A stretch of DNA of 64,000 bases from an uncultured Verrucomicrobiota bacterium (GTDB taxonomy: Bacteria > Verrucomicrobiota > Verrucomicrobiia > Limisphaerales > UBA1412): positions 1-64,000 of the forward strand of contig CALXMK010000004.1 of the NCBI GenBank assembly GCA_944389455.1, given 5' to 3'. Each line of letters begins with the position of its first letter. Within the stretch, counting starts at the first letter, position 1. This document shows, one piece after another, positions 60,399 to 62,452 of this stretch. Below the pieces are notes generated by a model that did no database searches, was not told where the DNA came from, and was given only the letters and a program-made list of their open reading frames with translations. The position numbers and the translations under genes are program-made.

Positions 60399-61703
60399 TT
60401 AAGGGTTTAAAGAGTGAATAATTGTGCGCCGAAGCCAATCCAGGGCAAATTGAGAGACGTAAAACTTAAAACTCTCCCGTTCATAAGGACAATAAAGTCT
60501 TTGTGAAAAGGTACCCTCAGGAGTTGCAAGCCCAATATAGACGGTGCCAACCGGTTTTTCAGGAGTCCCTCCGCCCGGTCCTGCGATTCCGGTGATGGAG
60601 AGTGCATAGTCGAGATTCATCCGAGTACGCATTCCAGAAGCCATTTCAATGGAAGTTTGTTCGCTGACAGCTCCCCATTTTTCCAGTGTTTCGCTTTGAA
60701 CACCCAAAAGTTGGCGTTTAAAATCGTTAGAGTAAGTTACGCAGCTGCCCATAAAGACAGCGGAAGCTCCGGGGACATTAGTAAGACGGTGTGCTAGAAA
60801 ACCTCCGGTGCAACTTTCAGCGGTTCCAAGGGTTTTGTGATGTTGTGTTAGAAGTTGTATGAGCACTTCTTCTAATTTTTGGGTGCCGGTGCCGAAGATG
60901 ATTTCTCCAAGTTTTTCACGGGCAATTTGTTCTGCCTGTTTCAGAATTTCATCTGCTTTTTGGCCGGAAGCTTCCAAACGGAAATCGACTTCACCGACGC
61001 GTGCGCAATAGCCAATTTGGAGTCCCTCTTTAACAAGGTACTGAAGATGAGGGGCTACTATTTTTTCAATAGAAGATTCTCCGGTGCAGGCAGTACGAAG
61101 GTTTAATAATTTGTGAGCTGAAGCGAAGGGAAATTTTTTACGCAACAGAGGAATCACAGAGTTACGGAACATTGGATAGAGTTCGCGGGGAGGTCCAGGA
61201 AGCAAAATAATAAATGATTTTTGCTGATTTTTACGGAAGAGATTAGGGAAGAACTCAATAGCTAGTCCTGGTGCTGTACCGTAGTCATTGGGGATAATGA
61301 GTGCTCCTTCAGGATATTGGGCTTGTATTTCGCAGTTAAAAGGAATAGGAGTTCCTCGGCGAGAGAACATGTTTTGAATTCGTTCAATAGTTCCTGAATC
61401 AACCAGAAGCCGGCGGCCGAGGAGCTGGGCGATATCGTTGCGTGTGAGATCATCCGAAGTTGGACCAAGTCCTCCGGTAACGATAATTAAATCGGCACGA
61501 GAGAGTGATTCACGGACGGCGCCTGTAATGGAGAGATTGTCATCATTGATACAGAGCTGTCGATCAATGGTATAACCGAGTTCGTCAAGTTGGAGAGCGA
61601 GCCATTGATGATGGGTGTTCAGAACCCGGCCAAGCATTAGTTCACTGCCGGTATTAATGATTTCAATATGAATATTTTTGTTGTCGTTAGGGAGCGTATT
61701 CAT
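60399..61703 (-). CDS. cinA: CinA-family nicotinamide-nucleotide amidase / ADP-ribose pyrophosphatase
   Basis: 434 residues in the full two-domain form. The N-terminal MoaB-like domain has IEIINTGSELMLGRVLNTHHQWLA cut near residue 12, VTGGLGPTSDDLTRND near residue 75, and LLPGPPREL near residue 165. The C-terminal deamidase domain has LGTAESCTGGFLAHRLT near residue 290 and SITGIAGPGGGTPEKPVGTVYIG near residue 370. It recycles NMN in pyridine-nucleotide salvage. The ATG at 61703 has no Shine-Dalgarno. Two structured RNAs lie upstream on the same strand. Confidence 0.94.
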   Translation of the reverse strand: MNTLPNDNKNIHIEIINTGSELMLGRVLNTHHQWLALQLDELGYTIDRQLCINDDNLSITGAVRESLSRADLIIVTGGLGPTSDDLTRNDIAQLLGRRLLVDSGTIERIQNMFSRRGTPIPFNCEIQAQYPEGALIIPNDYGTAPGLAIEFFPNLFRKNQQKSFIILLPGPPRELYPMFRNSVIPLLRKKFPFASAHKLLNLRTACTGESSIEKIVAPHLQYLVKEGLQIGYCARVGEVDFRLEASGQKADEILKQAEQIAREKLGEIIFGTGTQKLEEVLIQLLTQHHKTLGTAESCTGGFLAHRLTNVPGASAVFMGSCVTYSNDFKRQLLGVQSETLEKWGAVSEQTSIEMASGMRTRMNLDYALSITGIAGPGGGTPEKPVGTVYIGLATPEGTFSQRLYCPYERESFKFYVSQFALDWLRRTIIHSLNP

Positions 61704-61903
61704 GCGAGTTCTGCGAGTATTCTAAAGGATCCTTAATAATTTATTAGGAATGTACTTTTCCCAGAGTCTTTCCCTTTTTCTGTTTTTTGAGCAAAGAGTG
61801 CTCAAAGAAGCTAAAGTATTTTAGTATGTGAAGAGTTTCCTGACAAGAGGGTGCATATGTGGAGTTTTTAGAAAAAAATTATTTGATGAAGTGAATAAAA
61901 AAG

Positions 61904-62098
61904 AGAAAAAAACCGGGCTCCTTAGATTAGGGGATAACCCAGGAGCCCGGGGAACTTACGAATTAAAACACACTCTTGTAGATCTCCGATAGGAATCCTC
62001 TCTGGCCATAGTGTGACTGGCTGAGAGAAAATATAAAAAAGTACCGCATCCACCAACAACCTCTACTCGCTGTTGATATAGACCCTGCGGCCTCTACA
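61904..62098 (-). ncRNA. Predicted structured small RNA, copy 1 (cinA-proximal)
   Basis: Read on the - strand, a transcript of about 195 nt would begin near 62098. It starts with the block AGGCCGCAGGGTCTAT, then can form a CCGCA/TGCGG stem enclosing a CAACA/TGTTG stem. A second hairpin closed by CTCTC/GAGAG follows, then a block of about 90 bases (61903-61993) nearly identical to copy 2, and a 10-bp terminator stem with a T run. TGTAGA near the 5' end can pair with TCTACA in the conserved block. Promoter-like boxes lie just upstream. I do not recognise the family; it is neither tRNA nor tmRNA. Confidence 0.7.
61905..61950 (-). terminator. Terminator of small RNA copy 1
   Basis: On the - strand CCGGGCTCCT pairs with AGGAGCCCGG around an 18-base loop and is followed by TTTTTTT. 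The same stem and loop recur in copy 2. Confidence 0.85.
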
Positions 62099-62105
62099 CA
62101 AAAAG

Positions 62106-62132
62106 GTTATACTTTTCTTTTGGAGAGTGCAA
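62106..62132 (-). promoter_or_regulatory. Promoter-like boxes of small RNA copy 1
   Basis: On the - strand TTGCAC (62132-62127) is followed after 15 bases by TATAAC (62111-62106). The heptamer ATTGCAC occurs at the same relative place upstream of copy 2, although the sequence around it differs. Confidence 0.5.
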
Positions 62133-62229
62133 TCTTTTTTTTAAATTTAATCTATTCATTATCTTTTATCTTAATTCCCTAAGCTTAGATGAATTATTTT
62201 TGTTTATAATAATTACAGAGGAAATAAAG

Positions 62230-62418
62230 AGAAAAAACCGGGCTCCTTAGATTAGGGGATAACCCAGGAGCCCGGGGAACTTACGAATTAAAACACACTT
62301 TTGTGGATTTCCGATAGGTCAACCTCGAACCGTTATGTGCCCCGACCCGAGGAAATTCTAAAACCGGTATCATATACAGCTCCACATTCTGTTAATGATA
62401 GACCTCCGGCCTTCATCC
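62230..62418 (-). ncRNA. Predicted structured small RNA, copy 2 (cinA-distal)
   Basis: This is the same layout as copy 1, displaced by about 325 bases. It begins with AGGCCGGAGGTCTAT. A CCGG/CCGG stem encloses ATCAT/ATGAT and ACAG/CTGT helices; a hairpin closed by CCTCG/CGAGG follows; then come the shared 3' block (62228-62318) and an identical terminator stem. Several helices differ in sequence from copy 1 yet remain paired, which supports selection on structure. There is no coding potential of note. The closing GGAT/ATCC pairing is weaker than in copy 1. Confidence 0.7.
62231..62275 (-). terminator. Terminator of small RNA copy 2
   Basis: The 10-bp stem and 18-base loop are identical to those of copy 1, followed on the - strand by TTTTTT. 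Confidence 0.85.
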
Positions 62419-62424
62419 GAGATA

Positions 62425-62452
62425 AGAATAACAGATTTTAGATTTGGTGCAA
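62425..62452 (-). promoter_or_regulatory. Promoter-like boxes of small RNA copy 2
   Basis: On the - strand TTGCAC (62452-62447) is followed after 16 bases by TATTCT (62430-62425). The -35-like ATTGCAC is shared with copy 1. Confidence 0.45.

Follow-up and report, generated by a model that had tools for sequence, protein, structure and literature searches.

A pseudoknotted RNA with a C-rich terminator loop, predicted across the order Limisphaerales and duplicated in tandem in the genome of the window

Introduction

The small RNA RepG (HPnc5490) of Helicobacter pylori uses the C/U-rich loop of its terminator as a targeting element, which pairs with a G-repeat (PMC8295292). In Xanthomonas, sX13 acts independently of Hfq via C-rich loops, and the mRNAs that it represses carry G-rich motifs (PMC3771888). 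A further point of reference is boxA of the rRNA and suhB leaders. Its gammaproteobacterial consensus is GYTCTTTAANA, and the survey of boxA targets left out non-coding RNAs (PMC5725501).

The window analyzed here, a stretch of 64,000 nucleotides from an uncultured member of the order Limisphaerales (Limisphaerales/Pedosphaera, Verrucomicrobia subdivision 3), carries on its minus strand two tandem members, copies A and B, of a family of stand-alone RNAs of about 175 to 200 nt. Like RepG, the new RNA has a C/U-rich terminator loop, but here the loop is a strict YCCYC that sits atop a second tier of the helix, the pseudoknotted body has boxA in most cases, and no shared sequence is known. A C-rich loop is also the feature held in common with sX13, which acts without Hfq, while the action of the new RNA is inferred only. 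sX13 consists of three simple stem-loops in 115 nt as opposed to the single C-rich terminator loop and pseudoknotted core described here, and Hfq (PF17209) is absent from all 20 tested genomes, that of the window included. The boxA motif, G[CT]TCTTTGA, is the one present in the 16S leaders of the order itself; unlike the rRNA and suhB leaders, the new RNA is short, ends in its own terminator and has no downstream gene. With 6S RNA (RF00013) it shares its stand-alone nature, a length of about 180 nt and a wide distribution within its group, but not the fold, and a canonical 6S RNA is encoded separately in the genome. By analogy, the new RNA would work most like RepG and sX13; homology to either was not found, nor was it expected.

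Two RNA units in tandem

Copy A, the upstream unit, is predicted to yield a transcript of about 188 nt (62231-62418, minus strand) and copy B, the downstream unit, one of about 195 nt (61906-62100, minus strand), both starts being inferred from the -10 sites. As the original prediction had it, the two minus-strand units share a 5' block (GAAGGCCGGAGGTCTAT in copy A, AGAGGCCGCAGGGTCTAT in copy B), a 3' block and an identical terminator stem at a distance of about 325 nt. The 3' block, the most conserved part of the RNA, is an 87-nt direct repeat with 97% identity and a spacing of 325 nt. All stems that had been listed were found again, namely CCGCA/TGCGG, CAACA/TGTTG and CTCTC/GAGAG in copy B and CCGG/CCGG, ATCAT/ATGAT, ACAG/CTGT and CCTCG/CGAGG in copy A. 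The same is true for ATTGCAC, which precedes an A/T-rich -10 site by 15 to 16 nt in both units. The promoters can be read directly as TTGCAC-16 nt-TATTCT for copy A (62425-62452, minus strand), with equivalents in the congeners, and as TTGCAC-15 nt-TATAAC for copy B (62106-62132, minus strand).

A generic consensus scan of the window flagged neither the promoters nor the terminators of the two units. It is blind to these signals, TTGCAC falling short of the consensus and the terminator stem being built in two tiers. When the copies were folded singly, the energy stood out for B (z = -3.7) but not for A (z = -1.4). With convincing folding for copy B only and neither promoters nor terminators flagged by the generic scan, the question could not be decided from the window by itself, and it is the homologues that provide decisive support for structured RNAs. 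Their comparison also bears out the proposal of two independent RNAs of about 190 nt (predicted), each with its own promoter and terminator. It adds the pseudoknots, the boxA of the family and the C-rich terminator loop, none of which figured in the original prediction.

Distribution of the RNA family

When 58 relatives were searched at the DNA level, each of the five congeners proved to have the 3' part, and weak matches appeared in other families of the order. A first covariance model (R1), restricted to 83 positions at the 3' end, found matches in 240 of 320 Limisphaerales genomes. For the second model (R2), to which the central hairpin was added, only genomes of at least 85% completeness were counted (n=217). 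Matches were obtained in 192 of these 217 genomes, in 138 of the 154 high-quality ones and in 83 of 93 genera. In the window, R2 matches copy A at 62231-62360 (73.5 bits, E 7e-16) and copy B at 61906-62035 (80.8 bits, E 1e-17). Genomes nearly always contain a single copy, with two or three in several cases. The search for copies elsewhere that had been suggested showed that the window's own genome holds two in total, arranged in tandem. Genome G133 contains another such pair, and judged from these matches duplication appears unusual for the family. In one genome, a diverged paralogue (L144, G046:C24:5838-5960) lies 15 kb from a normal copy.

A draw of 388 genomes across the phylum returned the genome of the window, one other member of the order and one marginal match to the terminator only; as far as these matches tell, the RNA is found essentially nowhere else in the phylum. 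The match outside the order, in genome G331, was rejected as a true homologue. What was matched is a terminator whose loop looks similar, and a match of this kind is no more than chance would give in 388 genomes.

Rfam 15 gave no match above the gathering threshold in the window, and no convincing sub-threshold match to the RNAs was seen there or in eight homologous loci. A new family had been considered possible, and this stands. Near the RNA of a congener (L003:2099-2146) there is a sub-threshold match to the Acido-Lenti-1 RNA (25.7 bits, gathering 37). A literature search, which did not cover subscription papers, revealed no paper describing such an RNA, which apparently is undescribed. The other possibility that had been raised, a pair of 6S RNAs, draws on similar length, copy number and a stand-alone promoter and did not hold up. 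The same genome carries a canonical RF00013 match above the cut-off elsewhere (72.9 bits, G000:C6:60443-60623, L013), neither unit matches RF00013 at the gathering score or up to E = 10, and the fold consists of a hairpin, a pseudoknot and a terminator rather than a long rod with a central bubble. We regard this explanation as practically ruled out.

A conserved pseudoknotted fold

The claim of structured RNAs with compensatory change was assessed in an alignment of 84 homologous sequences (A4), in which 35 pairs were scored, and it was upheld. Paired cells amount to 86.9% compared with 77.6 +/- 0.4% in shuffles, two-sided changes occur in 26 of the 35 pairs, and the covariation score is 0.355 versus 0.191 +/- 0.006; none of 500 shuffles reached any of the observed values. 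When the partner was slid by one column, pairing dropped to 43-49%. Compensatory change is strong in a hairpin, in a pseudoknot that its loop forms with a strand further downstream, and in the two-tier terminator.

The hairpin, P1 (CCTCGGGTCG / CGGTTCGAGG in copy A, 62323-62352; 61998-62027 in copy B; minus strand), has two-sided changes in all ten pairs across the 84 homologues. CACA in its loop (62336-62339, minus strand, in copy A; CACAC at 62011-62015 in copy B) pairs with TGTG (62294-62297, minus strand; GTGTG at 61969-61973 in copy B). In this pseudoknot, 90.6% of the cells are paired and five of six pairs show two-sided change, the pairings seen being GUAC:GUAC, AUAC:GUAU, GUUC:GAAC, GUGC:GCAC and CACA:UGUG. 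Judged from the alignment, this contact between the P1 loop and a strand that follows P3 stands out as the cleanest of the new elements. P3 itself joins the 5' end of the transcript to the strand following P1. In copy A, GGAU (62415-62418, minus strand) pairs with AUCC (62305-62308), and the counterpart in copy B is UGUAGA:UCUACA (62098-62093 with 61982-61977, minus strand). Among homologues the helix takes such different forms as GGAUUACG:CGUAAUCC, GGUUUACG:CGUAGACC and GCUUACGA:UCGUAAGC, and the own pairs beat all permutations (0 of 5000; z -3.6 in an energy-based version). For P2 (AUUU/AAAU), 83.8% of the cells are paired, but the register shifts between sequences and the predicted pairing is tentative and weakly supported. 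The core furthermore contains a near-invariant linker, AAUUCGAAAAUUCC.

The crossing order P3, P2, P1, P3', P2' resembles the nested double pseudoknot of an HDV-like ribozyme. This candidate was rejected because the promoter immediately precedes the RNA, leaving no sequence to be cleaved off. The fold also bears on the idea that the units represent only a strongly conserved terminator repeat, i.e., a mobile or repeated element and not a functional RNA. While the 3' block is indeed the most conserved part, most genomes have one copy with a promoter at a fixed place, and the covarying P1, pseudoknot and P3 upstream contradict a mere terminator, so that this idea is hardly credible.

Promoters and genomic neighborhood

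In most homologues the promoter reads TTGACA, 17 nt and a -10 site, with the 17-nt spacer present in 73 of 87. Comparison thus points to a strong sigma-70-type promoter in most homologues. In the absence of expression data, we can only say that the RNA is probably highly transcribed and constitutive. Predicted transcripts of the homologues have a median length of 179 nt. Of 65 well-aligned promoters, 32 have an element resembling TAATACTT exactly 11-12 nt before the -35 site, e.g., at L048, L067 and L077, compared with a mean of 1.0 and a maximum of 5 in shuffles, though it was not seen in the genus of the window. Possibly, this is where an UP element or a dedicated activator would bind.

The downstream neighbor in the window is cinA (60399-61703, minus strand, from the list of open reading frames), which is not part of the RNA. 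In the window's genome and in those congeners for which the downstream side is available, the RNA lies upstream of cinA, and one might take it for a cinA leader or riboswitch. The original prediction had argued against this, and rightly so. Intrinsic terminators end both units, and cinA follows only within this genus. Other families have a different gene next to the RNA, in many cases on the opposite strand. A divergent P-II gene (glnB) followed by glnA adjoins the RNA in several families (e.g., L027, L029, L039 and L040), divergent dnaA is near it in about 13 loci and other genes are found elsewhere; gene names were assigned by reading translations without a family search. These differing neighbors are a strong argument against a leader. 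A promoter-like site between copy B and cinA (TTGTCA-17-TAAAAT, 61818-61846, minus strand), downstream of both RNA units, is compatible with a separate cinA promoter but only suggestive (scan count 1 versus 2.1 expected in shuffles). Taken together, a role as cinA leader is very improbable.

boxA

A boxA-like motif, G[ACT]TCTTT, is present in 79 of 87 homologues about 30-50 nt from the predicted start. It is located between P3 and P1, where the homologues read TTGTTCTTTG(A), and resembles the gammaproteobacterial consensus (PMC5725501). In 14 of 17 16S leaders of the order, G[ACT]TCTTTGA occurs 111-151 nt before the 16S gene. The boxA of the homologues matches this leader boxA, as membership of the family among boxA-bearing RNAs would demand. 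The comparison excludes the genome of the window, since the 16S gene is absent from its assembly. In the predicted fold, the unpaired fraction of boxA is 0.54 compared with 0.42 for the rest of the RNA. Across the window's genome, GYTCTTTGA was counted 114 times versus 55 in reversed controls. In the 16S leaders (L145-L161), boxA (G[CT]TCTTTGA) is followed by a sequence resembling AA[AG]TTGAATTGTG and preceded by a hairpin that often starts with ATTT[TC].GG; a similar ATTTCGGGC precedes boxA in the small RNA. A function of boxA in the RNA, i.e., NusB-S10 binding and Rho resistance, is inferred from the motif.

The same data invite a protein-sequestering role akin to the logic of 6S RNA with a different partner. 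The RNA would bind NusB-S10 in trans via boxA, compete with nascent pre-rRNA and thereby adjust rRNA output. The frequency of boxA, its match to the rRNA leaders of the same order, its tendency to be unpaired and the strong promoters would all fit, and non-coding RNAs fell outside the scope of the boxA target survey (PMC5725501). On the other hand, a decoy needs neither a pseudoknot nor a pyrimidine loop. Moreover, congeners of the window's genome keep GTTCTTT, while copy A lacks boxA, copy B has the mismatched GTACTTT and a few other homologues are likewise without boxA or mismatched, yet the 3' domain persists. We therefore consider a decoy rather unlikely.

The two copies of the window are informative in this respect. 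Their 3' domains are nearly identical. By contrast, drift with compensating changes has set the 5' domains apart, and boxA is missing from A and mismatched in B. As boxA could be lost or mismatched while the 3' domain stayed nearly the same, what is essential in the RNA is probably this domain. The sequences suggest that it carries the core function, with boxA as an auxiliary. Relative to the five congeners, both copies have derived changes in common, GTTA/TAAT for GTCA/TGAT and AAGTTCC for AAATTCC. The 5' halves differ widely despite the shared derived changes at the 3' end. This pattern suggests either that the duplication followed the split from the congeners or that the 3' block underwent gene conversion.

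The terminator and its pyrimidine loop

The RNA ends in a two-tier intrinsic terminator, found in every copy examined (copy A, 62232-62275, minus strand, apical loop TCCCC at 62255-62259; copy B, identical, 61906-61950, minus strand, loop at 61930-61934). In the 84 sequences, 92.7% of the cells of the inner helix are paired. The helix under the loop varies by compensation, and the closing pair even changes from A-U to U-A in three sequences. The apical loop reads YCCYC in all but three of the 84 sequences, without a purine at any of 420 positions. The single purine seen is in the loop TACTC of one congener outside the alignment (L007/L019, G005). Among control terminators in the same loci, only one of 21 has a comparable loop. 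The C-rich loop is thus under sequence constraint, as would be expected of a RepG- or sX13-like RNA, and the exclusive exchange of C and U is consistent with pairing to G. It must be noted that the loop also occurs as CCCCC and UCCUC, not all of these variants being perfect anti-Shine-Dalgarno sequences, which counts against an antisense reading, and that a loop made up of pyrimidines alone might just as well be bound by a protein. We also considered pairing between the RNA and 16S rRNA and rejected it; there were only matches of 10-11 nt and no consistent site in conserved unpaired parts.

A protein site is what one would expect if the RNA were a structural or housekeeping component of a ribonucleoprotein, a scaffold for an unknown protein that is conserved for its fold. 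Near-universal occurrence in the order, mostly in single copy, and the elaborate pseudoknotted core with its near-invariant linker AAUUCGAAAAUUCC speak for this. Restriction to one order, tolerance of duplicates and the high variability of the 5' half do not fit well. We judge this explanation unlikely, if slightly less so than the decoy.

Discussion

We propose a regulatory RNA of Hfq-less bacteria, in which a pseudoknotted body presents the C-rich terminator loop to G-rich mRNA sites and boxA aids synthesis. Without expression data or an identified target, we are evenly divided as to whether this reading is correct. According to it, NusB-S10 would bind boxA on the nascent RNA and help RNA polymerase to finish an untranslated, structured transcript without Rho termination. 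The pseudoknotted body would then serve as a stable scaffold that keeps the terminator loop exposed, and the loop may pair, independently of Hfq, with G-rich (Shine-Dalgarno-like) mRNA sites, resulting in altered translation or stability. In the genome of the window, the RNA has been duplicated, with the 3' domain held nearly identical and the 5' domains drifting.

A more far-reaching and clearly speculative version of this regulatory reading, which we think will probably not hold, is that a stand-alone boxA RNA couples NusB-S10 to translational control. Either the amount of free NusB-S10 would set completion of the RNA, or the RNA would titrate NusB-S10, and the C-rich loop would tune ribosome binding of G-rich mRNAs. 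If true, ribosome supply and demand would be regulated throughout the order by an RNA that works without Hfq.

In any case, the RNA is near-universal in a large, mostly uncultured order and combines a strongly supported pseudoknotted fold with two functional modules that can be read from the sequence. Two questions could be tested concretely on it, namely whether the boxA/Nus system of rRNA serves non-coding RNAs and how bacteria without Hfq run small-RNA control. Near-ubiquity in the order, together with the long-kept folded shape and the exposed C-rich loop, makes it probable that the RNA has a basic part in the gene control of the Limisphaerales.
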